The notes under the pieces were generated by a model. The model made no database searches, was not told the DNA's origin, and worked only from the letters and a program-made list of their open reading frames with translations. A program made the translations under genes and the position numbers. Below are positions 6,412-28,650 of a DNA stretch of 64,000 bases, piece after piece. The stretch spans positions 62,001-126,000 of the forward strand of contig LJSF01000043.1 of assembly GCA_001314655.1 (NCBI GenBank), written 5' to 3'. Origin of the DNA: Rhodobacteraceae bacterium HLUCCA08 (lineage in GTDB: Bacteria; Pseudomonadota; Alphaproteobacteria; Rhodobacterales; Rhodobacteraceae). How positions within the stretch are numbered: position 1 is the stretch's first letter; the number at the start of each line of letters is the position of its first letter.

Positions 6412-7569
6412 TCAACCCAGCGCGGCCAGGGAATTCGGCGCGACCCAGCCGGTCCGGTCCTCGGGATCGTCCAGGAATGTCGTGACCAACCCGGTCCATT
6501 CCATGCCCAGGTAAAGCGACTCATGCGCGTCCTCGGACGCCGATGAAACTGCGCGATAAAGGCCGGGATCGGCGCAGGCGCGGGCGATCTGGGTTGCAAG
6601 GTCGGTCGGGTCCGCGGCCTTGAAGACAAGGCAATGGCGATCCCGGTCAAGGCGACCGGCAAACGCCGGGTGGTCCGACAAGGCGACGACAGACCGCGAC
6701 GCCAGGCCTTCATAGATGACGTTCGGCAGGCCCTCGGGGTAATCGGGCCGGGACGGCACGACGACGAAATCGCTGGCGCGCATCGCCGCGCGCACCTCGG
6801 AATTCGGGATCCGGCCCGGAAAGCTGATCCGATCGCCGACGCCGCGGGTATCGGCATATGCCCGCCACTGCGTCGCGTCCCCGGGTCCGGCGATCGTGGC
6901 ACGGGCCTGCAAGCCCAGGCGATCGAGCGCCGCCACCGCATCGATCAGGTCGCCGACCCCCTTCGAAGCAACCAGGCTGCCGGCATAGAACAGCGTGGGT
7001 TCCCGGGGATCGACCGGAGCCGGCTTGGGCGGGCCGGCGAGCGGCACTTTCGACCAATCCCAGGGCACGATCCGCGCCGCGTCGATCCGCACAATCTGTG
7101 CCAGCGACCGCGATGCGTTCAGGCTGTGATTCGCGACACAGGGCGCCCTGCACCGATCAAGCAGGTGCCGCAAGTGCCGGTGCCGCAGCCAGCTGCCTGG
7201 GCCGCCGGATTGAAAGATGTCGGCGAAACTCGGCAGGACGAAGGTTCCCCGCCGTGCCGCCGCGAGCAGGAAGGCCGATCGAGGGCTGCGCAGAACCAGA
7301 TGGGTTGGTGCGATCCGGTCCATGACGGCGCTTGCCCGCGCAGCGGTCAGGTTTGCCTTGTCGATCCCGATCGTTTGCAGCTGCGGTGCCAGCATTTCAT
7401 CGTAGTCTTCAGGACCAAGGCGCAGCACCGTCACCGCGTTCCCGTCCGCGAGCCCCGCGGCAAAGTCGACGGATCGTTTCTGGTCGCGATAGGCTTCGGC
7501 CTCACCGGCTTGCAGCCGCTTGTAATCCGCGCGGAAATCGCCGTGCTGGACGAAGAGGATGCGTTTCAC
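6412..7569 (-). CDS. Family 4 glycosyltransferase
   Basis: 385-residue GT-B fold enzyme (GT4/glycos_transf_1). The C-terminal nucleotide-sugar domain shows FYAGSLVASKGVGDLIDA and the motif PSRPDYPEGLPNVIYEGLAS, matching the E-x7-E region that binds the donor diphosphate. The N-terminal acceptor domain begins MKRILFVQHGDFRADY. It overlaps the upstream sulfotransferase by 4 nt (ATGA), so it is translationally coupled and last in the minus-strand operon that comes from about 12.9 kb. It likely adds a sugar to the repeat unit in the cytoplasm. Confidence 0.85.
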   Translation of the reverse strand: MKRILFVQHGDFRADYKRLQAGEAEAYRDQKRSVDFAAGLADGNAVTVLRLGPEDYDEMLAPQLQTIGIDKANLTAARASAVMDRIAPTHLVLRSPRSAFLLAAARRGTFVLPSFADIFQSGGPGSWLRHRHLRHLLDRCRAPCVANHSLNASRSLAQIVRIDAARIVPWDWSKVPLAGPPKPAPVDPREPTLFYAGSLVASKGVGDLIDAVAALDRLGLQARATIAGPGDATQWRAYADTRGVGDRISFPGRIPNSEVRAAMRASDFVVVPSRPDYPEGLPNVIYEGLASRSVVALSDHPAFAGRLDRDRHCLVFKAADPTDLATQIARACADPGLYRAVSSASEDAHESLYLGMEWTGLVTTFLDDPEDRTGWVAPNSLAALG

Positions 7570-8519
7570 GCCCTGTCCTCCGCGACCGGATAGCCCAGCG
7601 CCGAAAGGTCAAGTCCCGCAAACTGGGCGAGGCGGGCATTCGACGCGTCGAAACACCCGGCATAGCGCATGGCGATCTGCGCGCGCCATGCCGCTTCGAT
7701 CCGGCGGTCCAGCGCGCGCGGTGACACCCGGTCGACAAGGCGCGTTGCCCGCCTGACAAGTCGTTCTGCAAGGGGCGCGCGGTTCGAGAGGGGGCTGCGG
7801 ACAATGAAGGCGTTCAATGTCCGGGCCGTGCGCAAACCCGTGCCCCCCAGCCCGGCATTCAGCCGTTGATCGGATTGCATGGCCTGCACCGGCAACTCTG
7901 TGAAGCGGAACAGACGCTCGAAGAACGCTGCGGGTGCGCGGTGCAGCATCTCTTGCGGCAGGATGCAGACATTGCCGGGCCCGAATGCGGCCTGGTAGGC
8001 GGCGACGGCGCGATCGAATTTCAGGTAATCTTCCCTGAGGATCGGTTGGTAGGAGCGCGGTTCGGACCCGGTCCCGATGAAGTCGCGCAGGCTATGGCGC
8101 CCGAGCTTGAGGTGTTCGCGATAGGCGGAAAGGGCCAGGTCGACCTGGTTGCGGATCGTGATCAGCACCCTTGCCCGCGGTGCGACCCGAAAAAGCCGGT
8201 CAAGCACCCAGGCGCCATCGTAGATCCGCTGCAGGGGATTGCCCAGCAAGGTCTCTTCGGACCAGACCGGCACCAGGCCGCGGGCACGCACCGGTGCCTC
8301 GGCCTCCGTCATTTCGGCGCTGATCCGCGCCGGGTCCTGCAGATAGGCGTCGTCGGTCTTGAACCAGGCGACCAGCCGTGCCCGGTTCGACACGCCATCG
8401 GCCAGGCCGAAGCCCAGTTCGGCACGGTCGAAGACCCGTCGCTGCAGGAAGGTGCTGGCGGTTTTCGGGTAGCCGACATGGACCAAGGCCGGGCCGTCAT
8501 AGGGGGCGGCTTGGGTCAT
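7566..8519 (-). CDS. Sulfotransferase family protein (tandem copy B)
   Basis: 317-residue protein with the phosphosulfate-binding loop near the N-terminus (HVGYPKTASTFLQRRVF, about residues 14-30), where K-T-x-S-T replaces the usual K-S-G-T-T, and a probable 3'-phosphate motif ITIRNQVDLALSAYREH. It is a clear paralogue of the next gene upstream: the same loop context, similar length, and C-terminal endings ASNARLAQFAGLDL and SSNKRLSDVIGIDL. It overlaps both neighbours by 4 nt. It probably transfers sulfate from PAPS to a sugar hydroxyl. Confidence 0.78.
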   Translation of the reverse strand: MTQAAPYDGPALVHVGYPKTASTFLQRRVFDRAELGFGLADGVSNRARLVAWFKTDDAYLQDPARISAEMTEAEAPVRARGLVPVWSEETLLGNPLQRIYDGAWVLDRLFRVAPRARVLITIRNQVDLALSAYREHLKLGRHSLRDFIGTGSEPRSYQPILREDYLKFDRAVAAYQAAFGPGNVCILPQEMLHRAPAAFFERLFRFTELPVQAMQSDQRLNAGLGGTGLRTARTLNAFIVRSPLSNRAPLAERLVRRATRLVDRVSPRALDRRIEAAWRAQIAMRYAGCFDASNARLAQFAGLDLSALGYPVAEDRA

Positions 8520-9448
8520 GATTCGTACCCGTATTCGGCGAGGTCGATCCCGATCACATCCGACAGCCGCTTGTTCGACGACCGGTAGTGCCCGTCGACC
8601 GCGCGCGCGATGACGCGCCGCAACTGGCGCAGATGCGCCTCGTTGTCGCCGAAACGGTCCGAGACCCTGTCGGCCGCCGAGATCAAGCGATCCCGCAGGC
8701 GCACCGCGACCGGAAGGTCTCGATACCGGTCGGGTGCCTGGGCCGGACGCTGAACGAAGCGGTTCAGGCGGCGTTGCAGCCCCAGGGCGCGGGCCGAATG
8801 GCGCCGGTTCATGGCCGCTGGGGTGTCCTGCACCGCGATGTCACGATCCAGAAAGGTGGCGATCCGCCTGGTGAATTCGGCCGGGTCGCGCCTGAGCATT
8901 TCCATGGGCAGAAAACGCACCTGGTCGGCCGCGAACTGCCGGGTCAGAAGCCGGTGCATCAGGTCATATTCGAAATGGTCCAGGCGGAAATGCGGCCGGA
9001 ATCCGGGCCGATCGCGGTTTTCGGACAGCAAGGCCTCCAGCCGCTTGGTGCCGCCCTGGCGCACATACTGGAAATAGTTCGACAACAGGATATCGGGCTG
9101 CCGCCGGATACAGACCAGGATCCTGGCATCGGGCAGGGCACGGGCGAGGCGGTCGACGACCTGTTCGGCGTAATACCGCCCATGAACCGGATAGCCCAAC
9201 AGATCCTCGTGCGAGATCAGCGGGACAAGATCGGGCGGGCCGATCAGGTCGGCGCGGATGCGATCCGGGTCGAAGCGTTCGGGATGGGCCAGGACGAAAT
9301 GCTCGATCGCCTGGGTCGATTGGGTGCCCCAGGGGGAATGGAACACGCTGTCGTCGACGAACAAATTCCGTTGAAGAAAGGTCGAACCGGTCTTCTGGTA
9401 GCCTGCGTGAACGAGGGGCGGTGCCAAGATCCTAACCTTCGTCTGCAA
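8516..9448 (-). CDS. Sulfotransferase family protein (tandem copy A)
   Basis: 310-residue sulfotransferase-type protein with an N-terminal loop HAGYQKTGSTFLQRNLF and the 3'-phosphate motif VCIRRQPDILLSNYFQY. It is paralogous to the following gene (7566-8519), and the two overlap by 4 nt (ATGA). Divergence between them suggests an old duplication and different acceptor positions. An 86-nt gap separates it from the upstream glycosyltransferase, so a secondary promoter is possible. Confidence 0.78.
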   Translation of the reverse strand: MQTKVRILAPPLVHAGYQKTGSTFLQRNLFVDDSVFHSPWGTQSTQAIEHFVLAHPERFDPDRIRADLIGPPDLVPLISHEDLLGYPVHGRYYAEQVVDRLARALPDARILVCIRRQPDILLSNYFQYVRQGGTKRLEALLSENRDRPGFRPHFRLDHFEYDLMHRLLTRQFAADQVRFLPMEMLRRDPAEFTRRIATFLDRDIAVQDTPAAMNRRHSARALGLQRRLNRFVQRPAQAPDRYRDLPVAVRLRDRLISAADRVSDRFGDNEAHLRQLRRVIARAVDGHYRSSNKRLSDVIGIDLAEYGYES

Positions 9449-9534
9449 ATGGCGTTGCGGAAAATGCTGTGGCGACCTTAGGCGACAGGCCCAGTTGCCG
9501 CAATGCCCGAGCGATTCGGCCTTGTCCGCTATAG

Positions 9535-10500
9535 TTACTTGTATTCAATGAGTTGCGCCCTTCCGCCACGCAAGCGTCGCAGGTAGTAGCCAAGCGCGCC
9601 CAGGCCTTCGGGCAGTTTGGCGAGGGTCAGAAAGACCGCGCCGGTCCAATCGTGGCCCTTCCGGCGCAGCCGCAGCACCTGCAACGGCCAGGCCAGCACC
9701 AGCCCAAGCGCCCAGGGCGTGATCATCGCCCCGACCAGTGTGACCAGGGGCAGCGCGACGCCCCAGGACAGGGCGCGGCGCAACTCGGCCGCCTTGTGCC
9801 GTTCGGGCGCGGCGCCGTGCATCGCGAACCCCTCGGCATAGGCGAATCCGCCCCGCCTGGTGCGGCGCCACCATTGCCCGAACCGGCTGAGCGCGGCGTC
9901 GTGCAGGGTCATTTCGGCATCCAGGCGCCAGACCTCCCAGCCGTGTGCACGAAGGCGCACGCAAAGCTCGGGCTCTTCGCCCGCGATCAGACCGGGGTCG
10001 AACCCGCCGACCTGGTCAAGGGCCGCGCGCCGCATCAGCGCATCGCCGCCGCAGGACCGGGCCTGGCCGATCGGCGTGTCCCATTCCCGGTCGATCAGCC
10101 GGTTGTAGATCGACGCATCGGGGTGGCGTTCGCGGCGGCGTCCGCAGGCGACGGCCGCGTTCGGATGGCTCTCGAGGAATGCCCGCGCGGTGTCGATCCA
10201 GCCCTCCTGCAGGCGACAATCGCCATCGACGAACTGGATATAGGCGGGGGCCTGGCCGGTTTCGGTCAAATGCGCCAGGCCCGCATTGCGCGCCCGGGCG
10301 GCGGTGAACGGAACCGCCATGTCGAGCGCGACGACATCGGCCCCCGCCGCCCGCGCGGCGTCGACGCTGCCATCGGTCGAACCGCTGTCGACATAGATCA
10401 CGCGGGCGACCTGGCCCTGCAGCGACGCAAGGCAGTCGATCAGCCGCGTGCCTTCGTTGCGGCCGATGACGATGGCGGCGATATCCGGACGCGTGGTCAT
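9535..10500 (-). CDS. Family 2 glycosyltransferase
   Basis: 321-residue GT2 enzyme. It begins MTTRPDIAAIVIGRNEGTRL and contains IYVDSGSTDGSVDAA (donor site), a metal-binding FVDGDCRLQEGW, and GGFDPGLIAGEEPELCVRL for acceptor binding. The C-terminal third (about 235-285) is hydrophobic and may anchor it to the membrane. I placed the start at 10500 because the GT2 fold begins there and the ATG overlaps the stop of the upstream sulfotransferase (ATGA). A longer upstream reading of the frame runs through that gene and is not coding. Confidence 0.85.
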   Translation of the reverse strand: MTTRPDIAAIVIGRNEGTRLIDCLASLQGQVARVIYVDSGSTDGSVDAARAAGADVVALDMAVPFTAARARNAGLAHLTETGQAPAYIQFVDGDCRLQEGWIDTARAFLESHPNAAVACGRRRERHPDASIYNRLIDREWDTPIGQARSCGGDALMRRAALDQVGGFDPGLIAGEEPELCVRLRAHGWEVWRLDAEMTLHDAALSRFGQWWRRTRRGGFAYAEGFAMHGAAPERHKAAELRRALSWGVALPLVTLVGAMITPWALGLVLAWPLQVLRLRRKGHDWTGAVFLTLAKLPEGLGALGYYLRRLRGGRAQLIEYK

Positions 10501-11342
10501 GTCGAGGCGAAGGGGTAGCACAGATCGAGCGCCGGATGCCCGGGAAAGACCCGGGCCAGATCTTCGCGGTCCTCCAGGAATGTCTGCTCGAGCTCGACGC
10601 GCAGATCCTGCGGCAATTCCGGACGCTTTTTCATCGTCAGCCGGTTCCAGACCCAGACCCTGACGGATTTGGGAATCAGCAGTTGCCGAAGCGGCCGCAT
10701 GACCGGGTTGTCGACCAGAACCCGGCGCAGGGGAAAGGTGCGGATCCGCCTGGCCGAGACATTGCTTGCACCAAGATCGCTTTTCCAGGCGGCCCCGGGC
10801 GGAAGGTCGAGGAACCGGGCGATCCGGGCGAATTCCGCCTGCGGATCCTGCGTGATCTGTTCGAGACTGGTCAGGTGGATCGCAGCTTGTCCGAAGGCCT
10901 CCAGGTAGGGGTCGAGCTGATAGGCATAGCGCCCGTAGTCCACCAGTTCGGGCATTTGCGCGAAGGCCAGGTCGATCCGGCCGCCGACCCTGCGTTCGGA
11001 CCATTCGTGGATGTAATGCGATACGGCGCGCTCGACAGGATTGCGGATCATGTAGATCAATCGCAGCTCGGGGCAGGCGTCATGCAGCCGGGCGACCGTG
11101 TCGGGGTAGGTGGGACGTTTGGTGTAATGGGTGCTGGCCTCTCCCCGCAGCGCGCTGGGCGGGGCCGGGTCGAAGAGCGCGGCATACCAGTCGGGCCCCT
11201 TGGCATAGACCGCATCGTCGGAAAAGTAGTTCGGCTCTTTCGGCGTCGTCACAAAGACGCCATCCTGCGCGGCCAGCTGGTCGGCCAGGGTCGTGGTGCC
11301 CGACTTCATCGCGCCGATGACGATGAAATCCGGCCCGGTCAT
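10497..11342 (-). CDS. Sulfotransferase domain protein
   Basis: 281-residue protein resembling heparan-sulfate-type sulfotransferases. The phosphosulfate loop is FIVIGAMKSGTTTLADQLA at about residues 5-23, followed by KEPNYFS, and the 3'-phosphate motif YMIRNPVERAVSHYIHEW is intact. Later LTSLEQITQDPQAEFARIARFL is typical of the family. The start at 11342 has GGAGGA just upstream, better than the longer alternative at 11417. It lies between the polymerase and a GT2 gene with 4-nt coupling to the latter. Confidence 0.88.
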   Translation of the reverse strand: MTGPDFIVIGAMKSGTTTLADQLAAQDGVFVTTPKEPNYFSDDAVYAKGPDWYAALFDPAPPSALRGEASTHYTKRPTYPDTVARLHDACPELRLIYMIRNPVERAVSHYIHEWSERRVGGRIDLAFAQMPELVDYGRYAYQLDPYLEAFGQAAIHLTSLEQITQDPQAEFARIARFLDLPPGAAWKSDLGASNVSARRIRTFPLRRVLVDNPVMRPLRQLLIPKSVRVWVWNRLTMKKRPELPQDLRVELEQTFLEDREDLARVFPGHPALDLCYPFAST

Positions 11343-11397
11343 CCGATCCTCCGGGCAGCAGGGGCGTTCGCGCTGCATTCGGTCTGTCCTGGTCGGA

Positions 11398-12882
11398 TCA
11401 TCGGGCCGGTCTGCCACCGTGACGGGTCTTTAGCGTCGTCTGTCTGGTATAGGGCGTCTTGCGCCTGTCCGGGGCCGGTGAAAGCCCTGCGGATGCGGGT
11501 CGGTCCCGTGTCGGTGTCGGTGTCGCGTCGGTGTCGGGCACCGTGTCGTCCCGATCGGCCGCCAGGCATTCGACCCGCCCCCAAAGCGCGCCGGCGACCA
11601 GCCAGGTGATCGGCGTCATGCTGGAATTCGGGATCATGTCGACGAGGTTGGCGATCATGATCAGCGACAGGCCCGCGGTTTCCCGGCTGACGGGGCGTTT
11701 CCGCGACCTCAGGAACAACAAGACGATCGGAACGACAAGCAGGCCGAATTCGGACAGGTAGCGGGCCCAACCGCCGACGCCGAAGGCGATGATCCAATAG
11801 CCATCGGCGATGGTCACGTCATTGCCCCGTTCATCGAGAATCCGGGACCGCCCCCATCCCCCCCAGCCGAACAGCGGCCGTTGCGCGGCCTTGTCCAGCA
11901 AGGCTTCCTCGTTCTCGAGCCGGGTTCCGAACGAGGCCGCGCGGTCGGGCGAATACTCGGCGATTGCCGCTTGCAGGCGTTCGACCGGGATCAGGCCGCT
12001 GGCCCGTGCCATCGGATAGGCGAGGATGATCACCCCCAGGATGGCCGCGATCAGCATCTGCATCCGCACGCCCAGGAACAGCACCACGGGCAACAGAACG
12101 AGCGTGATCAGCAATGCGCCCAGAGATTTGGACGCGAACACCATCAACAGCAGCCAGCCGGCAAGGGCCAGCAGTTTCGCCCGATCCGCCGCCGCGGAGC
12201 GGGACAGGGCCGCCGCGGCCAGGGTCGCCGCGGCCAGGAAGATCGACAGGCGCAGCCCGTGCTGAAGGAAGACGAGCGGGCGGTAGCCGCTGGCCCGGAC
12301 ATGCTGCGACCAGCCATGCGGGAAGAAACCGTAGACCCAGTTGTTCATCTGCGGCGACATGCGCAATTCGATCAGGATCAGCGCCGAATAGGCCAGCGCC
12401 CCGAATGCCAGGACCGTCAACAGCACCCGCTGGCCAGCCTGTTCGCCCAGGAATTTCCGGGCGACGAGAAGCGGCAGGATCGCGATGCCGGCGCCCAGCA
12501 TCGCCGAAAACCCGTCATAGACCCGCATGCCCGGCAACGTCGTGCCGCCGATCCGGATCACATCGCCATTCGTCAGAACGGTCAACAGCGATGACCCGAT
12601 GAGGATCGCGATCAGGGCAAGCGGCAGGACCGATCGCGGCAACAGACCCTGCAGGCCCCGACCGCGCGCCGCGAAGGCGAGCGCCAATGTGATGGCGGCG
12701 ATTGCCGGAATGGAATGCTTGTCCAGAGTCGGCAGCAGCGGCAGGTTGACGTAGAAACGGGTCGGCAAAAGCAGGTATCCCCCGACGATCGTCACCGCCA
12801 CCGCAACAGGCAAGGTCAGCTTGCGAAAGAACGCGACGGCGATCACCGGCCAGGCGAAAAGGGCGAACAGGGGCGGAATCAT
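11398..12882 (-). CDS. O-antigen polymerase / ligase-like membrane protein (Wzy type)
   Basis: 494-residue integral membrane protein with about ten or more hydrophobic segments, starting MIPPLFALFAWPVIAVAFF. A large periplasmic loop contains FGTRLENEEALLDKAAQRP followed by LFGWGGWG, a motif typical of O-antigen ligase/polymerase (Wzy_C/WaaL) proteins. Membrane segments resume with YLSEFGLLVVPIVLLFL. The last 70 or so residues are hydrophilic and rich in Pro, Thr, Asp and Arg. It is first in the minus-strand operon with the sulfotransferases and glycosyltransferases, divergent from the spike gene set. It most likely polymerises repeat units in the periplasm. Confidence 0.75.
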   Translation of the reverse strand: MIPPLFALFAWPVIAVAFFRKLTLPVAVAVTIVGGYLLLPTRFYVNLPLLPTLDKHSIPAIAAITLALAFAARGRGLQGLLPRSVLPLALIAILIGSSLLTVLTNGDVIRIGGTTLPGMRVYDGFSAMLGAGIAILPLLVARKFLGEQAGQRVLLTVLAFGALAYSALILIELRMSPQMNNWVYGFFPHGWSQHVRASGYRPLVFLQHGLRLSIFLAAATLAAAALSRSAAADRAKLLALAGWLLLMVFASKSLGALLITLVLLPVVLFLGVRMQMLIAAILGVIILAYPMARASGLIPVERLQAAIAEYSPDRAASFGTRLENEEALLDKAAQRPLFGWGGWGRSRILDERGNDVTIADGYWIIAFGVGGWARYLSEFGLLVVPIVLLFLRSRKRPVSRETAGLSLIMIANLVDMIPNSSMTPITWLVAGALWGRVECLAADRDDTVPDTDATPTPTRDRPASAGLSPAPDRRKTPYTRQTTLKTRHGGRPAR

Positions 12883-13087: not shown

Positions 13088-13348
13088 ATGGAAGACCTGT
13101 TCAAGAACGTGGTCAGCGGGCTCGAAAGCCCGGCGACCTACCTTTTCGAAGTCACCCCCTCGGATACGGTCGATCTGCCCGTGGCCAGCCGGGCGTTGAA
13201 TGTCGCGCAGGCCGGTTCGGTGCGAGTCACGACACTTGACGGATCGGTCGGGGCGATCCATGTCGGCGCGGGCATGGCGTTCCCGCTTCGGGTCAAGAGG
13301 ATCTGGGCAACGGGCACCACCGCCACCGGAATCGTGGTGATGAGCTGA
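13088..13348 (+). CDS. GTA/phage-type spike base protein, Rcc01079 (GhsA)-like
   Basis: 86-residue protein. TPSDTVDLPVASRALNVAQA, then SVRVTTLDGS, GAGMAFPLRVKRI and a terminal WATGTTATGIVVM match my recollection of the spike base protein family named after Rhodobacter capsulatus Rcc01079, part of the head spike of the RcGTA gene transfer agent; relatives occur in alphaproteobacterial phages. The small beta-rich domain probably multimerises to hold a fibre. No signal peptide is present. It has a good ribosome site and its stop overlaps the next start (TGATG). No capsid, terminase or tail genes are nearby, and the set lies inside the polysaccharide locus. Confidence 0.75.
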   Translation: MEDLFKNVVSGLESPATYLFEVTPSDTVDLPVASRALNVAQAGSVRVTTLDGSVGAIHVGAGMAFPLRVKRIWATGTTATGIVVMS

Positions 13349-14487
13349 TGATCGGCTTCAGCCTGGGATTGAACGGCGCCGGCCTGCCGTCCGGCGACAT
13401 GCCTTTCGACGACCCGGTCGCCGAGATCGATATACTTGGCGAAGGCACGCTGGTTGTCTCGTTCGTTGGCGAAAACGTCGAGATCACCATCACCGGCACC
13501 GCGTCGGCGGATGGCACCTATGTCGTCGACCAGTCGGCGTTGGCGGCCGGCCCGGTCAATCTGGTGCCGCCCGCATTGCCGGCAGGGGTGGCGACCGCCG
13601 GCGACAGCCTGGCGATCACGCCCGGGCTGTGGGTCTATGACATCGACAACGGAATGCCCACGATCGGCTATGTCCATGATGGCAGCGGCAGCATCTCGGG
13701 CCTCGGCTACCTGTCGGGGCCGGCCGATGCCGGCGCCACCATCACCGTGACGGAACAGGTTTCCCAAGGTGGCGTCCAGGCCAGTGCAACCAGCAATGCC
13801 GTGACTTTCGAGGGCGTTGCCGCCTCGGGGCCCGAGCTTCTGGGCATGAGCCTGGGCGGGGTCGAGCAGCTCCCCTGGCGGCATTGGGGCGAAGCCACCG
13901 CGACCCCGGTGCTGACCATCGACACGACCGGCCGCACCGTCGGCGACACGGTTTTCGTCGTCTGGGGCGATGACCGGAACATCGCGTCGGCCAGCATCAA
14001 CGGCACCCCGGTCACGATCGTCAGCGTGACGCCGCCCGCAGGAACGTTTCGCGCCCGGTTGAGCGTGCTCAGCCACGTCTTGCAGGCGGGTGAGATCGGC
14101 CTGCTGGACATCGTCGCCACGCTTGACGGCGGATCGTCGTCAAATCATCGTGCCCTGGCCATGGCAACGGATCAGCAGCTCAGCCTGGAGGCCCGGGACT
14201 ACGTCGGCTCCGGTCAGCAGACGGTTTCGTGGTCGATCGACGTGGCCGCCCCGGTGAACACGCTGTTGACCTTCGCGACCGGAGAGGTCGGGTTCTTTCA
14301 GGACACCGACGGGCCGGTCTTCGCGGGCGTCGCGCGCCAGCACTGGGAACGCCAGGCCGACCGTGGCGGAGCCTACGGCATGTCGTCCGATCTGTCGCCG
14401 GGGAATGTCGCGGTGTCCATTTCGCGAACCAACAGCGACACAACGCGCTGTTCCTTCGCCACACTTCTGTTCGAGGCGACGCCATGA
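13348..14487 (+). CDS. Beta-rich protein of the spike operon, function unknown
   Basis: 379 residues, no signal peptide or membrane segment, low in Lys and Cys, rich in Gly, Thr, Val and Ala, as in fibre or Ig-like proteins. The start FSLGLNGAGLP is followed by beta-strand-like stretches (EGTLVVSFVGENVEITITG) and at about 165 a second part begins ELLGMSLGGVEQLPW. I do not recognise the family. It overlaps the spike base gene by 1 nt and the beta-helix gene by 4 nt, so the three are translationally coupled. By position it could be the fibre or adaptor between base and beta-helix enzyme, comparable to the second spike gene of RcGTA (Rcc01080), but I see no clear motif shared with it. Confidence 0.6.
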   Translation: MIGFSLGLNGAGLPSGDMPFDDPVAEIDILGEGTLVVSFVGENVEITITGTASADGTYVVDQSALAAGPVNLVPPALPAGVATAGDSLAITPGLWVYDIDNGMPTIGYVHDGSGSISGLGYLSGPADAGATITVTEQVSQGGVQASATSNAVTFEGVAASGPELLGMSLGGVEQLPWRHWGEATATPVLTIDTTGRTVGDTVFVVWGDDRNIASASINGTPVTIVSVTPPAGTFRARLSVLSHVLQAGEIGLLDIVATLDGGSSSNHRALAMATDQQLSLEARDYVGSGQQTVSWSIDVAAPVNTLLTFATGEVGFFQDTDGPVFAGVARQHWERQADRGGAYGMSSDLSPGNVAVSISRTNSDTTRCSFATLLFEATP

Positions 14488-16421
14488 GAATGAGCTTTCT
14501 TCCCGCCCTGGATCCGATGACCACATCGCTGACGGTGCGCAGCGGAGCGGCGTCGGCGTCGTGGCAGGCCGGCCTGACCGGGAATGCGACGATCATCGCC
14601 AACCGTTCGCCGCTGCGCACCGCCCCGGAACGGATCTTTTTCGACGTCGAGGTCGACGGATTCGACACGCCGGGGCCGTCGGGTTCGGATTACGATCCGC
14701 GTCTGCACGAGCTGATCTACCTGTGGGATTTCGACGAACCCGGCCTGCGGTTCGACACGCCCGAGAAACTCCTGAGCGAATGGCGCGATGCGAACGTGGC
14801 CCACGGGCCCTTCGTCGCCCATCTTTACCGGGTGCCGGGACGGTATACCGCCCGCGTGACGGTGATCGAACCCGCGACGGGGCGAACGGCGCAGGCCGCC
14901 TTCGAGGTGGTCGTCGAAGATCCGGCCGAGACCTTTGCTGACGAGCACACGCTTTATGTCAGCCAATCGGGCGATTTCGCGAATGCGCCGCAAGGCGCGC
15001 TGATGTTCGACGACCTTCACAAGGCGTTCGACCATATCGACAGCGCCGGGCCGATCCCCAAGCGGGTCATGCTCAGGCGGGGCGAGGTCTGGCAACTGAC
15101 AAAGTCGACCTGGTTCAGCGATCGGCGGGCCCATTTCGTTCATGTCATTGCCGAACCGGGGTCCGGCGCGAGACCCGAGTTGCGTGGTGTGCCCGACACC
15201 GGGGAACGCGCGATCTTCCGCCACCGCAACACGCTTGCCGGAAGCGAATACGCCTATTCGGGTCTGGTCCTGCGGGGCGGCTGGGACAGCACGACGGAAA
15301 CCGGGTTCAACACCAATTACGGCATCCAGATCGAACAGGCGGCGATGGGCCATGTGGTGGTCGACAATTGCCATATCACCGGTTGCGACCAGGCGATCTT
15401 CGAAAGCAATACAGATCAGGAAATCCAGGACGAGAAATCGGTCGTGGTCAACGACTGCCATTTCACGAACTGGCGCGGGCTGTGCCATTACGCGGCGGGG
15501 GCGTCGCGCTATGCCTGGCTGGGAACGGCGATCGTCTGCGACCCGGACGCCCTGGCGGGCGGGCCCAAGAACAACTACCACAACGAACACGGCCCGATCC
15601 GGTTCCAGTGCCGCAACACGTTCAAGGCCTTCATCGACGGCTGCGACATCTTCAACCGGGTCGGCTGGTTCCGGAATGTCGGATACCAGACCCAGCAGCC
15701 CTGCATCCGCTGGAACCAGATGGCGGCGCCCGGCAGCGTGCTGAACCTGCAACGCAGCAGCCTGGAAGGCGGGCAGGTCACGATCGCCGTGACAGGGGTG
15801 AACGGCGATACGGTCGAGAACGTCCAGAACGTCCTGATCGACCGCTGCATCTTCGTCGGCTCGCACATGACCCAGGCGGCGATCAAGGCCGACAGCACCG
15901 CCCTGACCGTGCGCAATTGCATCGCGATCTTCCCCGATGTCGAACGGATCGCGCGAGTCTATGCCCCCAAGGGCTTTGTCCAGGTGACGGACAATTTCAA
16001 CCCTCAGGCCCTGACCGCCCCGATGCGGGTCTACAACAATTCCGTCCTGAACCTGATGGGCGACGCCAACCACCCGCTGGGCGATGCCCGGGTCGACCTG
16101 GTGGTGGACGAGATCGGGCTTGCCGACCTGGAGGTCGCGAACAACGTTCTGCACCAACCCAATCTTGGCGTGCCTGACGTGGATCAAGGGCCGCTTTCGA
16201 CCCAGATCCTGTGGTTGCCACGGGAACGCGGCTACATCTCGCAGGAGCAGCCGGAGTTGTTGGCGCAATACGCGTCACCGCTCGACACGGTGCAGCTGCC
16301 CCGGCCGCTGGAGGGGTCACCGGCGCTGGGCAATGCCCTGAGCGGCTCTGTCAGCTACCGTGATCTGCTGGGCAACGACCGGCCGACCTATCCGTCAATG
16401 GGTGCGCTCGAGAGGGGTTAG
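14484..16421 (+). CDS. PKD-domain plus right-handed beta-helix protein, tailspike/polysaccharide-lyase-like
   Basis: 645 residues without a signal peptide. Residues about 50-150 form a PKD-like module (LIYLWDFDEPGL, then HLYRVPGRYTARVTV). From about 155 (DEHTLYVSQSGDFANAP) to about 590 it has the short alternating repeats of a right-handed parallel beta-helix, with turns such as VVVDNCHITGCDQAIFESN, VVVNDCHFTNW and NVLIDRCIFVG. This fold is shared by pectate lyases, depolymerases and phage tailspikes. The ATG at 14484 overlaps the previous stop (ATGA). In the operon it follows the spike base protein, so it could be the polysaccharide-binding or -cleaving end of a spike. Catalytic residues cannot be assigned. 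Confidence 0.72.
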   Translation: MRMSFLPALDPMTTSLTVRSGAASASWQAGLTGNATIIANRSPLRTAPERIFFDVEVDGFDTPGPSGSDYDPRLHELIYLWDFDEPGLRFDTPEKLLSEWRDANVAHGPFVAHLYRVPGRYTARVTVIEPATGRTAQAAFEVVVEDPAETFADEHTLYVSQSGDFANAPQGALMFDDLHKAFDHIDSAGPIPKRVMLRRGEVWQLTKSTWFSDRRAHFVHVIAEPGSGARPELRGVPDTGERAIFRHRNTLAGSEYAYSGLVLRGGWDSTTETGFNTNYGIQIEQAAMGHVVVDNCHITGCDQAIFESNTDQEIQDEKSVVVNDCHFTNWRGLCHYAAGASRYAWLGTAIVCDPDALAGGPKNNYHNEHGPIRFQCRNTFKAFIDGCDIFNRVGWFRNVGYQTQQPCIRWNQMAAPGSVLNLQRSSLEGGQVTIAVTGVNGDTVENVQNVLIDRCIFVGSHMTQAAIKADSTALTVRNCIAIFPDVERIARVYAPKGFVQVTDNFNPQALTAPMRVYNNSVLNLMGDANHPLGDARVDLVVDEIGLADLEVANNVLHQPNLGVPDVDQGPLSTQILWLPRERGYISQEQPELLAQYASPLDTVQLPRPLEGSPALGNALSGSVSYRDLLGNDRPTYPSMGALERG

Positions 16422-16482: not shown

Positions 16483-17736
16483 ATGGCCGAGCCTTCCCCC
16501 AGACCCATCGCGTATCTCACGGCGGTGTTCCCCGCCCTCTCGCATACCTTCATCCTGCGCGAAATCGACGCGGTTGAGGCGGCGGGTGTGCCGGTGCGCC
16601 CGGTTTCGGTGCGCGAACCCGATGCCCAGGGAACGCTGGGACCCGACGAGCAGCGGATGCGGGGCCGCACCCATTACCTGTTGCGGACAGCGCGCAATCC
16701 GCTGGCATTGCTGGCGGCGGCGGGGTGGGCGTTGGGCCGGCCGGGGCGGTTCCTGTCGGCCATCGGCCTGGCCTGGTCGATCCGGCCCGCCGGCCTTCGA
16801 GCGCTGGTCTATCAGCTGATCTACCTGGTCGAGGCCATGTTGCTGGCCCGTCACGCCCGGGCCGAGGGCTGCGGCCATATCCACAGCCATTTCGCCAATT
16901 CCAGCACCACCGTCGCGATGCTGGCCGCGCGGATGGCCGGGCTGCCCTATTCGTTCACGCTGCACGGGCCGTCCGACCTGTTCGAGGCGCGCTATTGGCG
17001 GCTGGACCGCAAGATCGCCGGGGCGGATTTCGTCGCCTGCATCAGCCATTTCGCCCGCAGCCAGGCGATGCTGAACGCCGATATCGCCGATTGGCCGAAG
17101 CTGCGCATCGTCCATTGCGGCGTGGTGCCGGCGACCTATGCCGGGGATCGGCCGCCCCCGACCGGCGACCGGATCGAATGTATCTTCGTCGGGCGCCTGG
17201 CCGCGGTGAAGGGTCTGCCGGTCCTGTTCGAGGCGCTCGCCGCGGCGCGTGAGGACCAGCCCGGGCTGCACCTGTCCATCGTCGGCGACGGGCCGGACCG
17301 CGCCATGCTGACACGCCTGGCCGCGCCGCTGGGCGGGGCGGTCACCTTTGCCGGGGCGCTGTCGCAACACCAGGTCGCCGAGGCGCTGCAAGAGGCCGAC
17401 ATGATGGTCCTGCCCAGCTTTGCCGAAGGTGTGCCGGTGGTGCTGATGGAAGCGCTGGCCAGCGGCCTGCCGGCCATCGCGACCCGTGTCGCCGGGGTGC
17501 CGGAACTGGTCGACCACGAGGTCAGCGGCCTGATCGTGGCACCGGGCGATGTCGCGGGTTTGCGCGACGCGATCCTGCGGCTTGCCGTCGATCCCGCGGG
17601 GCGCGCGCGGATGGGGCAGGCCGGCCGCGAACGTGTCGTCGCAGACTATGACATCGCCCGCGAAGGCGCCTGGCTCGCGCATCTGTTCCGCGGCGAGGCC
17701 GGCACGGCGCTGCGCCCCGGAAAGGCCGCGTCATGA
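16483..17736 (+). CDS. Family 4 glycosyltransferase
   Basis: 417-residue GT-B enzyme. The N-terminal domain has AYLTAVFPALSHTFILREI and HIHSHFANSSTTVAMLAARM, typical of colanic-acid-type (WcaL/AmsK-like) transferases; the C-terminal donor domain has FVGRLAAVKGLPVLFEAL and PSFAEGVPVVLMEALASGLP with the E-x7-E pair. I start at ATG 16483 because the GT fold begins there. It follows the spike operon by 61 nt on the same strand and is probably transcribed with it or from a promoter in that AT-richer gap. Confidence 0.85.
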   Translation: MAEPSPRPIAYLTAVFPALSHTFILREIDAVEAAGVPVRPVSVREPDAQGTLGPDEQRMRGRTHYLLRTARNPLALLAAAGWALGRPGRFLSAIGLAWSIRPAGLRALVYQLIYLVEAMLLARHARAEGCGHIHSHFANSSTTVAMLAARMAGLPYSFTLHGPSDLFEARYWRLDRKIAGADFVACISHFARSQAMLNADIADWPKLRIVHCGVVPATYAGDRPPPTGDRIECIFVGRLAAVKGLPVLFEALAAAREDQPGLHLSIVGDGPDRAMLTRLAAPLGGAVTFAGALSQHQVAEALQEADMMVLPSFAEGVPVVLMEALASGLPAIATRVAGVPELVDHEVSGLIVAPGDVAGLRDAILRLAVDPAGRARMGQAGRERVVADYDIAREGAWLAHLFRGEAGTALRPGKAAS

Positions 17737-17881: not shown

Positions 17882-19162
17882 GTGACCAGATTGCTGATCC
17901 GACTTTATGGCCTTGTCGACGGGCGTGAACGCGTCCTGGCCTACCTTGTCGCCCTGTTGACCGTCGCGGCCTGCTGGGCAGTGATCCTGGCCTCGGGCGA
18001 CCGGTTGAAATCGCTTGACGAGGGCGCGTTCCTGGCGCTCGCACAGAACCTCGCCGGCTCGGGCAGCTATGTCGAGGAGCCGGGCGTTCCCACAGCCTAT
18101 CGTGCACCGGGGCTGGTGTTCTTCCTGACGCCCTTCGCGGCGCTGGGGCTGGAGATCGTCGGGTTGCGGCTGGTGAACGCGGCGCTGATCGGGTTGGGCC
18201 TGGTCTTGGTCTATCACCTGGTCGCGCGTCGGGCCGGGCCCCTGGCGGGGCTGTTCGCCACCGTGATGATCCCGGCCTGGCCGGTGGTGATCTATGCGGG
18301 GACCACGCTGTATCCCCAGACGCTGGCCGCCTTCCTGCTGGTGCTGACGGTCTTTGCCATCGACCGGCAGGTCGTGTCGGACCGGTTGCGCGGGGCGATC
18401 TGGTCGGGCATCGCCTATGCGCTGCTGCTGCTGACCATACCGATCGTGCTGCTGCTGTGGCCGATCATCGCGCTTTACCTGCTGATCCAGACCCGGCGCA
18501 AACTGGCCCATGTGCTGGTCTTCACGCTGGTCGGCGGGGCCGTGGTGGGCAGCTGGACCTATCGCAACTACGTGGTGTTCGACCATTTCATCCCGGTCGC
18601 CACCAGTTCCGGCTACAACCTGCTGGCCGGGAACGCGCCGAATGCGCGCTTCGATACCAGCCTGAACGTCCGCTTCCCGGAATATGTCTATACCGAGATC
18701 ACCGGGAAATCCGAGGTCGAGAAGAACGATATCATGACCGAGGCCGCGATCCGACTGATCCGCGAGGATCCGCAACGGGCGGCGCAGCTCTATGTCGGCA
18801 AGTTCCTGCACTGGTTCGACTATTCCAACCGGCTGCTCAGCGACGATGTGGTCGAGGGCGGCGCCTCGGCCCTGGCGCCAAGCAAGCGCGACATGATCCT
18901 GCTGGCCTCCTACCTGCTGGTGATCGCCCTGCCGCTGGTCGCCCATGTGCTGGCCGCCCGGCGCCATCCCTTCACCCGGATGGAGCTGCTGTTCGTCGCG
19001 CTCTGGGTCTGTTCGGGTCTGGCCTATGCGATCTTCTTTACCCGGGTGCGGTTCCGGCTGCCCTTCGACTGGCTGCTGATCACCAGCAACGCCATGTTCC
19101 TGGCGGCCGTGATCGAACGCTGGATCGGCGTGCAGCGCCCGCCCGGCGGGCCGGTGCGGTGA
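17882..19162 (+). CDS. GT-C fold membrane glycosyltransferase (GT39/ArnT-like)
   Basis: 426-residue membrane protein with about ten hydrophobic helices. The first periplasmic loop carries the acidic motif KSLDEGAFLALAQNL, where D-E is the metal/donor carboxylate pair of GT-C enzymes such as ArnT and protein O-mannosyltransferases, followed by PTAYRAPG. Such enzymes use polyprenyl-phosphate sugars in the periplasm. This fits the next gene, a UbiA enzyme that could make an unusual polyprenyl-linked donor. The start is GTG at 17882, and the stop overlaps the UbiA gene start (GTGA). Confidence 0.75.
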   Translation: MTRLLIRLYGLVDGRERVLAYLVALLTVAACWAVILASGDRLKSLDEGAFLALAQNLAGSGSYVEEPGVPTAYRAPGLVFFLTPFAALGLEIVGLRLVNAALIGLGLVLVYHLVARRAGPLAGLFATVMIPAWPVVIYAGTTLYPQTLAAFLLVLTVFAIDRQVVSDRLRGAIWSGIAYALLLLTIPIVLLLWPIIALYLLIQTRRKLAHVLVFTLVGGAVVGSWTYRNYVVFDHFIPVATSSGYNLLAGNAPNARFDTSLNVRFPEYVYTEITGKSEVEKNDIMTEAAIRLIREDPQRAAQLYVGKFLHWFDYSNRLLSDDVVEGGASALAPSKRDMILLASYLLVIALPLVAHVLAARRHPFTRMELLFVALWVCSGLAYAIFFTRVRFRLPFDWLLITSNAMFLAAVIERWIGVQRPPGGPVR

Positions 19163-20421
19163 CGCGGGGCCCCGACACGACGCTGGCCGTCCATCTGGAC
19201 GGCGCCCTGTTGCGCAGCGACCCGCTGTTCGAAAGCTTCTGGGCGGCGGCGGCGCGGGATTGGCGGGCCGCGCTGGTGGCCATGGGCCGTGCGCCGCGCG
19301 CGGGGCGAAGCGCCGCTTTCGACAGGATCGGGCCAGTGGACGTGGCGACGCTGCCCTATGATGCCGACCTGATCGAACGGCTGCGCGCCCACAAGACGGC
19401 CGGCGGCCGCATCGTTTTGCTGGCCGGACCGGATGCTGCCCTGGCGCGGCGGATCGCCGGGCACCTGGACCTGTTCGACGAGGTCCGGGACGACCGCTTT
19501 GCCGACCTGCAGGCCGAAATCCTGGCCGGATCGAATGCGCCACCGGCGCTGCGGGACTACCTGCGCGCGCTGCGGCCGCATCAATGGCTCAAGAACCTGC
19601 TGGTCTTTCTGCCGATGCTGACCGCCCATGCCTTTGGCTGGGAGGCATTCCTGGCGTCGTTCCTTGCCTTCGTGGCCTTCAGCATGGTGGCGTCCAGCGT
19701 CTACCTGCTGAACGACCTGCTGGACCTGGCCGCCGACCGCGCCCATCCGCGCAAGCGCGCGCGCCCCTTTGCCGCCGGCGACATTCCCATCGGGCGGGGC
19801 ACGGTCCTGGCCGGGGGGCTGCTGCTGGGCGGGTTCGTCATCGCGGCGCTGATCGCGCCGCTCTTTCTTCTGGTGATGGCGCTCTATTATGCGATCACGC
19901 TGGCCTATTCGATGGACCTCAAGCGGCGCACGGTGATCGATATCTGCGTGCTGGCCGGCCTTTACACGATCCGTATCGTGGCGGGTGGGGCGGCGACGGG
20001 TATTCCGCTGTCGGTCTGGCTGCTGGCCTTCTCGATCTTTCTGTTCTTCGCCCTGGCGGCGGTCAAGCGCCAGGCGGAACTGGTCGACAACCTGCGGCGC
20101 GGCGAACTGGCCGTCTCGGGGCGCGGCTATATCGTCGACGACATCCCGGTGGTGCAGGCGATGGCGATCGGGTCGGGCTACGTGTCGGTGCTGGTCATGG
20201 CGCTGTTCGTGAACGCGCCCAGCACCGTGGCCAATTATTCCACCCCCGAGGCGCTTTGGGGGATCTGCTGCGTGCTGCTGTACTGGATCACGCGGACGGT
20301 CTTTCTGGCCCATCGCGGCTACATGGACGACGACCCGGTGGTCTATGCCGCCAAGGACAATATCAGCCGGCTGTGCCTGGTGCTGATCCTGGGCTTCGCG
20401 GGCCTCGGGATGGTGCTGTGA
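19159..20421 (+). CDS. UbiA-family prenyltransferase with degenerate N-terminal HAD domain
   Basis: 420 residues in two parts. Residues 1-130 align with the HAD-like domain that precedes UbiA domains in many polysaccharide loci, but motif I reads VHLDGALL: the nucleophile Asp is His12 and the Thr is Ala, and no later HAD motif is seen, so it is probably not catalytic. From about 135 (RPHQWLKNLLVFLPML) the membrane UbiA domain begins, with NDLLDLAADRAHPRKRARPF (metal-diphosphate site) and YSMDLKRRTVID. This branch resembles decaprenyl-phosphate phosphoribosyltransferases, so a polyprenyl-phosphate pentose donor for the preceding GT-C enzyme is plausible. GTG start overlaps the upstream stop. 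Confidence 0.75.
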   Translation: MTRGPDTTLAVHLDGALLRSDPLFESFWAAAARDWRAALVAMGRAPRAGRSAAFDRIGPVDVATLPYDADLIERLRAHKTAGGRIVLLAGPDAALARRIAGHLDLFDEVRDDRFADLQAEILAGSNAPPALRDYLRALRPHQWLKNLLVFLPMLTAHAFGWEAFLASFLAFVAFSMVASSVYLLNDLLDLAADRAHPRKRARPFAAGDIPIGRGTVLAGGLLLGGFVIAALIAPLFLLVMALYYAITLAYSMDLKRRTVIDICVLAGLYTIRIVAGGAATGIPLSVWLLAFSIFLFFALAAVKRQAELVDNLRRGELAVSGRGYIVDDIPVVQAMAIGSGYVSVLVMALFVNAPSTVANYSTPEALWGICCVLLYWITRTVFLAHRGYMDDDPVVYAAKDNISRLCLVLILGFAGLGMVL

Positions 20422-21542
20422 CGATGCGCGGGCCCGATCACGCAACCTATATGGGTGTGCGCCATTTCGGCAGTCTGGACGGGCTGCGGTTTCTGTGCAT
20501 CACGGCGGTGATCTGGCATCACCTGGGGCTGTGGTCACAGTTGGAGAACCCGATCACCCTGGCCGTGCGCGGCCATGTCGGGGTCGATTTCTTCTTTGTT
20601 CTCAGCGGCTACCTGATCACCACGCTGCTGCTGCGCGAAGAGACGCGCGACGGAAGCTACAGCCTGCGCGGGTTTTACTGGCGACGGATCCTGCGGATCG
20701 TGCCGATCTATTTCTTCGTCGTCACCGTGGCGGCGATCTGGTCGATCGGCATCAAGGGCGAAACCGGATACCTGTCGATCCTGCCGGCCTATTACCTGTT
20801 CCTGTCCAATTTCCTGGCGGTGAAGGACATCCCCTTCCTGTCGCCGACCTGGTCGCTGGCGGTGGAAGAGCAATTCTACCTGGTCTGGCCGCTGTTGCTG
20901 ATGCTGGTGCCGCGGCGCTGGATCCTGCCGGTGCTGGGGGTGCTGATCGTGCACAACGTGGCCTCGGCGGCGGGCCTGTTCGACCTGGTCGGGATCACCG
21001 GCATCTCCGTGGGCGCGTTCCATTTCGCCATCGCCAAGGCGACCTATGCGCCGCTGTTCTTCGGCGCCGGGCTGGCGATCGCGTTGAATGCGCCGCGCGG
21101 CTTTGGTGCGATCGCCCGGGTCACCGGGTTCCGCGCGGCGGCGCCGGTCTGGTTCGCCGTGGTGCTGGGCGTGCTGTCGCTGGACTGGGGGCCGCTGGCC
21201 GGTATCCCGAATTTCTTCGTTCACCTGTCGATGACGCTGATGCTGGCCGCGCTGGTGGTGCGCGAGGACAACGGGCTGGCGCCGATCCTGCGGCTGCGTC
21301 CGATCGAACGGATCGGCCAGGTCAGCTATGGCATCTACCTGTATCACCTGTTCGCGCTGACCATCATGGGCAAGCTGTTCGAAACCCTCGGCTGGTGGAA
21401 TTACCCGGTTCTGATGCTGAGCTATTACGCCCTGGCCTGGGCCATGGCCGAGATCAGCTTTCGCACGCTCGAAGCCTATTTCATGGGGTTCAGAAAGCGC
21501 GGCTGGGGCCGGACGCCGGCGGTGCGCGAAGGCGCGACCTAG
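20418..21542 (+). CDS. Acyltransferase 3 family membrane protein
   Basis: 374 residues with about ten membrane helices. Family marks are FGSLDGLRFLCITAVIWHHL with the conserved His near the first helix, RGHVGVDFFFVLSGYLITTL, WRRILRIVPIYF and WSLAVEEQFYLVWPLLL. OafA/ExoZ-type enzymes O-acylate (usually acetylate) polysaccharide sugars at the membrane. The GTG at 20418 overlaps the UbiA stop; an ATG two codons later is an alternative start. The gene ends convergently with the next minus-strand gene, overlapping by 4 nt. Confidence 0.88.
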   Translation: MTMRGPDHATYMGVRHFGSLDGLRFLCITAVIWHHLGLWSQLENPITLAVRGHVGVDFFFVLSGYLITTLLLREETRDGSYSLRGFYWRRILRIVPIYFFVVTVAAIWSIGIKGETGYLSILPAYYLFLSNFLAVKDIPFLSPTWSLAVEEQFYLVWPLLLMLVPRRWILPVLGVLIVHNVASAAGLFDLVGITGISVGAFHFAIAKATYAPLFFGAGLAIALNAPRGFGAIARVTGFRAAAPVWFAVVLGVLSLDWGPLAGIPNFFVHLSMTLMLAALVVREDNGLAPILRLRPIERIGQVSYGIYLYHLFALTIMGKLFETLGWWNYPVLMLSYYALAWAMAEISFRTLEAYFMGFRKRGWGRTPAVREGAT

Positions 21543-22393
21543 TCCAGCCGCCAGAAATCGCGCGGCTTGCCGCAATGGTCCAGCAGCGCCTCGGCCTCGG
21601 GGCGCAGATGCGCGGCCAGCTCGGCCCGCAGGTCGGCCGACAGCCGGGGCTTTTCGGTCACCTTGCGGCTGAGAAGGCGGGTCCGCACCAGCTGCTTGAG
21701 CCCGCCCGGCACCAGCCGCTTGGCCAGGCCGATGCCGGGGATGCGGTTCACCGCCGTATAGGCGCGCGACGGCATCCGCTTGCCGATGCTGCGGTTCTGA
21801 TGGTTCCCCTCATCCCGGGCGAACCGGGCGACACCCAGGAAATCGCAGACCCCGTCGAACACCGCCTGCGGATCGCGGTTCAGATCCTCCATGAAGGCGA
21901 TGTGGATCCGATCGTCGCCGAAATGGTCGCGATAGGGGGCAAGGTTGAACCAGTAGCGGCTTTGTTCGACGAATTCGCCCGGCATCTCGCGCACCGCCCG
22001 GTCAAGGGTCGCCGGCACGGCGTCGCCCGAGTTCGTGCGCCGCTGCAGCCAGGCGGAGACGATCCGGTCGATCGGGTGCCGGACCATGTAGATGATCTTC
22101 ATGTCCGGATTATAGGCGGTCATCCGCGCCGCGGTCTCGGGATGAAGATTGCGCCAGGAATAGCCGTTGGACCCCTCACCGCAGAGCGTTTCGGTGGTGC
22201 GGGGCGCGAAATGGGCGTCGTACCAGGCATCTCCGCGGGCGAAGTTTTCGTCGCGGCTGAAATAGTTCGGCTCTGCCCGCGGCACCATGTAGGTGTCGGG
22301 GTGGTCCTCCAGGTAGGAGCAGATCGTCGAGGTCGCCGCCTTCATCGCGCCGATGACGATGAACTCCGCGCGGTTCGGCCCCGGCAGGATCAC
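21539..22393 (-). CDS. Sulfotransferase family protein with atypical loop
   Basis: 284 residues. The N-terminal loop reads EFIVIGAMKAATSTICSYLE, so the usual K-S-G-T-T is K-A-A-T-S-T, as in some bacterial and chondroitin-type sulfotransferases. EPNYFSRDENF and the 3'-phosphate motif YMVRHPIDRIVSAWLQR are present. The first codon is GTG at 22393, overlapping the stop of the upstream GT2 (GTGA), so the two are coupled. It likely sulfates a sugar added by that transferase, an inference from position only. Confidence 0.82.
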   Translation of the reverse strand: MILPGPNRAEFIVIGAMKAATSTICSYLEDHPDTYMVPRAEPNYFSRDENFARGDAWYDAHFAPRTTETLCGEGSNGYSWRNLHPETAARMTAYNPDMKIIYMVRHPIDRIVSAWLQRRTNSGDAVPATLDRAVREMPGEFVEQSRYWFNLAPYRDHFGDDRIHIAFMEDLNRDPQAVFDGVCDFLGVARFARDEGNHQNRSIGKRMPSRAYTAVNRIPGIGLAKRLVPGGLKQLVRTRLLSRKVTEKPRLSADLRAELAAHLRPEAEALLDHCGKPRDFWRLD

Positions 22394-23319: not shown

Positions 23320-23485
23320 GGCACAGGTTCTGCCCCAGCCTTGGGCAACGGACAAGCGACAGACGTCAATTCGTCTCCAAATGTTCACAATCGGCTGCAA
23401 AAGCAGCGATGTGACCGGGATTGACCCTATACCTGCACCGTGTCGCGGCCTAAGACCGGCCCATAGAACGAAGGATTTTCGAACC

Positions 23486-24802: not shown

Positions 24803-24842
24803 GGCGCGGCGCGCACCGGTCCGAACAAGAGGGAGCTTTCCG

Positions 24843-27535: not shown

Positions 27536-27545
27536 TCGCCTGACC

Positions 27546-28643: not shown

Positions 28644-28650
28644 CCAGCCC

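Follow-up and report, generated by a model that had tools for sequence, protein, structure and literature searches.

We have identified three overlapping same-strand genes, A, B and C, at positions 13088-16421 of a 64,000-nucleotide stretch of Rhodobacteraceae bacterium HLUCCA08 (contig LJSF01000043.1, positions 62,001 to 126,000; hereafter the window), inside a locus for a sulfated surface polysaccharide. We consider it probable that this trio forms an operon for the head spike of the gene transfer agent (GTA) that the strain itself carries, of the RcGTA type known from Rhodobacter capsulatus, and that the operon is placed within the locus for the probable receptor polysaccharide. Genes A and B are likely a GTA head spike, and by analogy with R. 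capsulatus this spike is likely aimed at the polysaccharide encoded in the same locus; we are less sure of gene C, whose modelled fold suggests a depolymerase-like partner acting on polysaccharide. An initial annotation, made from the sequence alone, had proposed a domesticated spike, a GTA head spike co-inherited with its receptor, or a phage remnant. The second option fits best, because an RcGTA-type cluster lies elsewhere in the genome, gene B begins with a docking-type peptide and a matching trio occurs in another genus. Across the family, spike-base genes are linked to polysaccharide genes, and this linkage is the new part as far as we searched the literature.

The coordinates agree with the earlier view of three coupled genes: A and B overlap by 1 nt (TGATG) and B and C by 4 nt (ATGA), which makes translational coupling plausible. 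We place the start of C at 14484, and the gene finder used here favoured an in-frame ATG at 14490. Gene A had been described as encoding an Rcc01079-like protein of 86 amino acids, and a hidden Markov model search bears this out, with 103.5 bits against the NCBIfam equivalog for the Rcc01079 spike base (NF048002, cutoff 28) and residues 3-85 aligned to positions 1-84 of the 85-position profile. The protein also matches the chain of PDB entry 6tb9, the solved Rcc01079 head-spike base (E 2.7e-11), and the family phrog_12296, annotated as 'tail fiber protein' (5e-24). To judge by these matches, gene A genuinely belongs to the Rcc01079 family of spike bases, and its product is predicted to be a pentameric jellyroll on capsid vertices. 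Glu13 of A aligns with Glu12 of Rcc01079, a capsid-side cation ligand according to the available portion of PMC7296036; this glutamate varies within the family and is not invariant. A profile of 16 base proteins found matches in 137 of 394 family genomes, and base relatives occurred in 36 of 50,697 phage records, Rhodobacterales phages among them, every one less than 60% identical.

Directly after the base, as in RcGTA-type spikes, comes a gene whose product starts with a Leu/Gly peptide, MIGFSLGLNGAGL, resembling by pattern match the docking peptide of the RcGTA head fibre. The corresponding fibre of R. capsulatus SP108 starts MSALGLGLGLTG in the DNA (it is cut at 187 amino acids by the end of its contig), and that of the matching trio, in genome G375, starts MSGIGLGLGLG (G and L numbers are our labels for genomes and loci). 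The docking pattern, defined as alternating hydrophobic and small residues among the first 20, was present in 19 of the 32 genes that immediately follow a base, against 104 of 1653 other genes (Fisher test, 1e-14). The definition was made after viewing the published peptide and several starts, and a separately fetched set of named genomes is the fresher test: there the counts were 20 of 43 against 106 of 1296 (1e-10). Gene B had been called unknown; it is not featureless, having both this N-terminus and an immunoglobulin (Ig)-like domain, while the rest of the protein stays without a confident model. A profile of eight B-like proteins matched Ig-like phage tail proteins (E 2.6e-8) and decoration proteins (E 0.002 and 0.007). 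B itself found no BLAST relative in 100 other genomes and no tblastn match in the phage records, and searches of PDB sequences with B alone or C alone gave no match. Other fibres with a docking-type start carry carbohydrate-esterase-type domains (SASA at L020:10219-12174 and L031:10110-11441, GDSL at L030:10155-11690), and such spikes may, from their domain content, deacetylate their own receptor.

The source genome holds an RcGTA-type cluster on another contig (L018). Nine of its ten proteins match NCBIfam models, namely portal, prohead protease, capsid, connector, major tail, RcGTA tape, distal tail, hub and megatron, with 337 bits for the tape (cutoff 220) and 1839 bits for the GTA megatron (cutoff 800). 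Its capsid protein is closely related to Rcc01687 (E 5.5e-181), and an open reading frame of 463 amino acids, taken for the large terminase, had no NCBIfam match at E 1e-5. Among the family genomes the GTA megatron domain (GTA_TIM) is present in 346 of 394, including 131 of 137 base-positive against 215 of 257 base-negative genomes (Fisher test, 3e-4; counted by hand). As GTA_TIM can also come from GTA-like prophages, this pairing is an association with such elements and not proof of a working GTA. Regulation was considered as well. The R. capsulatus head-spike genes ghsA and ghsB (rcc01079 and rcc01080) are controlled by CtrA and GafA, as stated in the part of PMC9638019 at hand. We dropped a shared promoter motif of base genes as a candidate: TTAA, the core of the CtrA half-site, was found upstream of base genes in 30 of 64 cases against 183 of 645, a weak excess uncorrected for base composition, and k-mers failed multiple-test correction.

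The trio is matched in G375, a genome of another genus, where base, fibre and C-like genes lie between Wzy and a group 1 glycosyltransferase in the order of the window (L134), surrounded by relatives of the window's group 2 glycosyltransferase (GT2), sulfotransferase, exosortase and flippase. Identity to the window is 66% for the base, 33% (over 140 residues) for the B-like fibre and 33% for C, compared with 47% for Wzy and 51% for the glycosyltransferase after the trio; B and C show lower conservation than the genes around them. Such lower conservation would be expected of parts that track a changing receptor, and also of any loosely constrained surface protein. Among the Wzy matches listed, a base lies within 10 kb in at least five of the ten closest relatives (G375, G384, G397, G216 and G355) and in at least two of about 140 remoter ones (Fisher test, 8e-6, hand count). 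In three congeneric genomes (G001-G003) the window Wzy is absent at E ≤ 1e-10; no base was detected in G002 and G003, and G001 has only a distant one (38%). G375 also contains a prophage-looking stretch with a base (L135:6739-6942) and terminase- and portal-like genes and, 20 kb beyond that base, a fibre with a docking-type start (MQLGISMGL) and, after it, a C relative (L136:6689-10113). Thus, the same spike parts occur in phage-like elements.

Linkage of spike base and polysaccharide genes extends across the family. Of 37 sampled base loci, 26 have at least two polysaccharide genes no further than 7.9 kb away, compared with 1 of 41 control stretches (Fisher test, 5e-11); for one or more genes the counts are 26 of 37 and 2 of 41. 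When all 53 family loci are taken, including the first 16, at least two such genes are found in 32 and at least one in 35. The sample consists of base places on contigs long enough to allow a control about 90 kb off, some lower-scoring eligible places falling outside it, and the 41 controls come from the same contigs, 37 paired with sampled loci and four with loci of the first set. L037 and L038 were dropped before counting as the same places as L022 and L031, and L041 was kept though its base was uncalled by the gene finder. Nine classes of polysaccharide gene were scored with profiles whose seed sequences came from the window, L019 and L020 (for epimerases, from L027 and L084), and epimerases were excluded from the count because controls carry them too. 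When 10 random polysaccharide calls were compared with Pfam, nine fell in the expected family (one Wzy below the cutoff) and one had no match. All Fisher tests here treat related genomes as independent.

The named genomes gave a similar picture and indicate where the spike genes may have come from. Two or more polysaccharide genes were found at 25 of 35 Rhodobacteraceae-like base loci and at 4 of 41 loci from outside that group, in other alphaproteobacteria and further taxa (Fisher test, 2e-8), with the assignment to the two groups made by hand. These named loci are the best 80 of at least 134, of which L189, L192, L204 and L223 were left out, their contigs having been sampled already. Among the 41 other loci, eight (three from Kaistia, two from Brevundimonas, and one each from Sphingomonas, a Micavibrio metagenome-assembled genome and an alphaproteobacterial one) have at least four RcGTA-type genes no more than 7.9 kb from the base. 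In the seven loci that were mapped, the base and its following gene stand inside or at the end of a terminase-portal-protease-capsid-tape-tail-megatron run; the eight loci could be either GTAs or GTA-like prophages. The base among RcGTA-type genes in other alphaproteobacteria suggests that the spike moved out to polysaccharide loci in the Rhodobacteraceae, although the reverse order is possible.

For gene C, the annotated PKD plus beta-helix architecture is supported by a confident AlphaFold2 model built on an alignment of 13 relatives (mean predicted local distance difference test score (pLDDT) 80.3, predicted template-modelling score 0.88), with Pfam matches to both parts falling under the gathering cutoffs. 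In VIA-align comparisons the best match was the Vibrio polysaccharide lyase RbmB (Z 22.1, root-mean-square deviation 2.7, 317 aligned), with alginate lyase 6kfn (Z 20.0), AlgE epimerases (Z 19.9) and the phage tailspikes 6f7k (Z 19.4) and 6c72 (Z 18.8) behind it, rows within Z 1 of each other counting as ties. The candidates were drawn from the Foldseek list; TspA, described in the accessible part of PMC13420450 as a detachable beta-helix tailspike of RcGTA that degrades biofilm, is not among the rows, which are uninformative on its likeness to C. Foldseek returned a single PDB match at E ≤ 0.001 (lacto-N-biosidase LnbX) and 17 viral matches. Residues R373, E428 and N478 are among those identical in all 13 aligned relatives. 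C could also be a separate secreted or lysis-released enzyme.

Relatives of C were found at 18 places in 14 of the 394 genomes, the source genome included, with three of the 14 matching over 51-66 residues only; tblastn found no match to C in the phage records, and pattern scans of viral contigs and genome contigs confirmed no relatives. By eye, C-like genes lie in polysaccharide loci (L137-L142, L144 and L147), some without a base near, and in two prophage-looking stretches (L136 and L145). In L137, L139, L140 and L147, all polysaccharide loci, genes of one family encoding 63-77 amino acids precede a B-like fibre and a C-like gene, the fibre in L139 being uncalled by the gene finder. From this gene order it is as if the small proteins were a second, unrelated base carrying the same fibre and C module; the L137 copy had no NCBIfam match. 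In two genera, polysaccharide loci with a spike base encode a large protein as well (L019:3836-7474 and L150:15612-17807): the former has beta-helix, PKD and laminin-G matches, and the latter, by eye, starts similarly.

If the trio is a head-spike operon, A would form the base on capsid vertices, and B would dock on A through its N-terminal Leu/Gly peptide, reach outwards and bind the polysaccharide. C would bind or trim the same polymer, whether as a part fixed to the spike or as a protein set free along with the particles on lysis of the producer. Through their linkage, spike and receptor would be inherited together, so that the particle would recognise cells bearing its own polysaccharide.

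Several results weigh against this explanation. The near-complete genomes G183, G282, G291 and G432 have a base without GTA_TIM and without a relative of the source genome's GTA capsid; this is the main result against a purely GTA reading, and means that base genes can persist without a detected RcGTA. The two further base-positive genomes without the megatron domain are G156, the only one of the six with a GTA capsid relative, and G306, which is 77% complete. The base adjoins polysaccharide genes in G183 (L091) and G291 (L090). The docking pattern is missing from 13 of the 32 and 23 of the 43 genes after a base, no polysaccharide gene of the panel was found near the base in 11 of the 37 sampled loci, and the 205 bp upstream of A contain no TTAA. 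The model of B is poor (mean pLDDT 47), the Ig-like stretch alone being confident, C-like genes occur without a close base in L142 and L144, and particle assembly, polysaccharide binding and enzymatic activity of C are steps that we infer.

The genomes without a detected RcGTA also bear on the suggestion that the trio is domesticated and GTA-independent, modifying or releasing polysaccharide at the producer surface or in lysates, which we regard as unlikely. The likeness of the fold of C to polysaccharide lyases and epimerases would suit such a role, as would G134, where C lies between Wzy and a glycosyltransferase without base and fibre (L144). However, by eye rather than by predictor, none of A, B and C has a signal-peptide start, and the capsid-docking family fold of A and the base-docking peptide of B have been kept although they would be useless without a capsid. 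The base also tracks the presence of GTA genes in the megatron counts given above, and the four near-complete genomes may hold a divergent GTA.

The phage-remnant option of the initial annotation, under which a lytic or temperate phage that used the capsule left its spike in the locus or had it captured there, is less likely still, and we reject a prophage remnant as the principal explanation. It can draw on the base relatives in phage records, on the prophage-looking stretch of G375 with its base, docking fibre and C relative, and on at least five of the 53 family loci that look prophage-like by eye (L028, L081, L088, L092 and L094). Against it, all reading frames of the trio are open and overlap, tblastn with B or C found nothing in phage records, and, unlike a random remnant, the trio has a counterpart at the equivalent position of a related locus from another genus. 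The earlier remark that no capsid, terminase, portal or tail genes surround the trio agrees with a search of the 64-kb window with eight GTA-type phage profiles, a narrow panel that gave no match (PHROGs were run on the trio only). The same panel had no match in any of the 37 sampled base loci; it missed all five prophage-looking loci and is thus insensitive to non-GTA phages. Rather than mainly in ordinary prophages, the base loci lie among polysaccharide genes (26 of 37), with at least five of 53 prophage-like by eye.

Chance co-location, with polysaccharide loci acting as hot spots for cargo and the spike having no functional link to a receptor, seems very improbable. Polysaccharide loci are variable, roughly one in three of the base loci sampled is found outside them, the sequences of B and C diverge more than those of the flanking genes, and a hot-spot effect is possible because the 41 controls were not matched for variable loci. 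The linkage counts against controls (26 of 37 and 1 of 41) argue otherwise, as do the presence of a base near several of the closest Wzy relatives listed and the binding of the R. capsulatus spike to its capsule, reported in the available parts of PMC10218006 and PMC7296036.

A broader proposal, which we put forward tentatively as possible rather than probable, is that in the Rhodobacteraceae the GTA spike left the GTA cluster for receptor loci, and that spike and polysaccharide are exchanged as a cassette, forming a greenbeard-like system of self-recognition. If so, a lysing producer would send its DNA mainly to cells wearing its own polysaccharide, a cassette that replaces the capsule would re-aim the GTA too, and the polysaccharide would have in gene C an enzyme suited to it. 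This bears on the open question of why bacteria keep GTAs although their producers die: if across a family the aiming part is linked to the receptor genes and moves with them, delivery would favour cells with the producer's polysaccharide, and kin-biased transfer becomes directly testable. Such loci also supply sets of polysaccharide genes, each matched with candidate proteins for binding or cutting sulfated marine polysaccharides.

Polysaccharide genes, the receptor candidates, adjoin the trio on both sides, as expected of an RcGTA-type head spike (Table 1). The locus includes an exosortase EpsH with DUF3485 (25931-27535), and EpsH relatives with 54-68% identity occur in L134, L140, L142, L144 and L151. 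Two large proteins encoded further along the window (36594-39482, 962 amino acids; 41957-45115, 1052 amino acids) are possibly surface or matrix proteins of the locus; the first has repeat-type matches to adhesin models, with scores far under the cutoffs.

Table 1. Features of the window, and of other loci where a locus label is given (GT, glycosyltransferase; aa, amino acids; ORF, open reading frame)
Feature	Position	Strand	Basis
Gene A, head-spike base, Rcc01079 family, 86 aa	13088..13348	+	6tb9, phrog_12296 and NF048002 matches
Gene B, predicted head-spike fibre, 379 aa	13348..14487	+	adjoins A; docking-type N-terminus
N-terminal peptide MIGFSLGLNGAGL of gene B, predicted to dock in hydrophobic pockets of the base pentamer	13348..13386	+	pattern match
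Ig-like domain of gene B, about residues 70-155	13555..13812	+	profile of 8 B-like proteins
Gene C, depolymerase-like protein, possibly spike-associated, 645 aa	14484..16421	+	PKD and beta-helix model
PKD domain of gene C, about residues 31-146	14574..14921	+	Pfam match and model
Right-handed parallel beta-helix of gene C, about residues 148-620	14925..16343	+	structural alignment of model
Wzy/O-antigen ligase-type polymerase, divergent from the spike operon	11398..12882	-	PF04932, 37.3 bits, cutoff 31.7
Group 1 (GT4-type) GT, downstream of C	16525..17736	+	PF00534; start uncertain, ORF opens at 16360
Group 1 GT, three sulfotransferases, group 2 GT	6412..11417	-	profile matches
PMT-type GT, UbiA, acyltransferase 3, sulfotransferase, GT2, UDP-sugar dehydrogenase	within 17882..30042		
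DUF6492, exosortase EpsH, group 1 GT, Wzx-type flippase	within 17882..30042		further polysaccharide genes
63-77 aa gene copies	L137:13741-13974, L139:7879-8112, L140:5556-5789, L147:18417-18608		
Base among RcGTA-type genes	L155, L156, L158, L173, L186, L203, L221, L228		

The initial annotation had considered co-evolution of spike and capsule in one locus to be new. Adjacency of the two is known, since ghsA and ghsB adjoin the capsule genes rcc01081-01086 in R. capsulatus (PMC10218006, as far as its text was available); what is new, as far as searched, is its generality across the family. We found no family-wide statement on spike-capsule linkage in the literature searched, and priority is not established: the word 'spike' is absent from the available portions of PMC9836097, PMC11409702, PMC10883770 and PMC9765227, and those of PMC6209664, PMC6854486 and PMC8224337 hold no such statement. 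Phage matches have been noted for both ghsA and ghsB (PMC8601537, in the part available).

With the RcGTA spike, whose structure is described in PMC7296036 (available in part), the trio shares the curated base family, a fibre gene directly downstream with a Leu/Gly docking-type peptide, adjacent polysaccharide genes and an RcGTA-type cluster elsewhere in the genome. For R. capsulatus the capsule neighbourhood is taken from papers alone, the SP108 contig ending 0.6 kb past the base. The known arrangement differs from ours in that the window operon lies deep in a large sulfated-polysaccharide locus, between Wzy and a glycosyltransferase, and has an added third gene; this nested position, gene C and the family-wide generalisation are what is new as far as searched. 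Compared with PDB sequences, the fibre body also shows no detected similarity except in its Ig-like domain. TspA, set apart here by its description, belongs to the baseplate and adjoins lysS in a conserved module of its own, whereas C follows a head-spike fibre in a capsule locus. With RbmB and the depolymerase tailspikes of phages (such as Acinetobacter phage Fri1 gp49 and those of Dettilon and CBA120), C shares the beta-helix (Z 18-22), but it differs from them in sequence, with about 10% identity, and in the PKD domain that stands in front.

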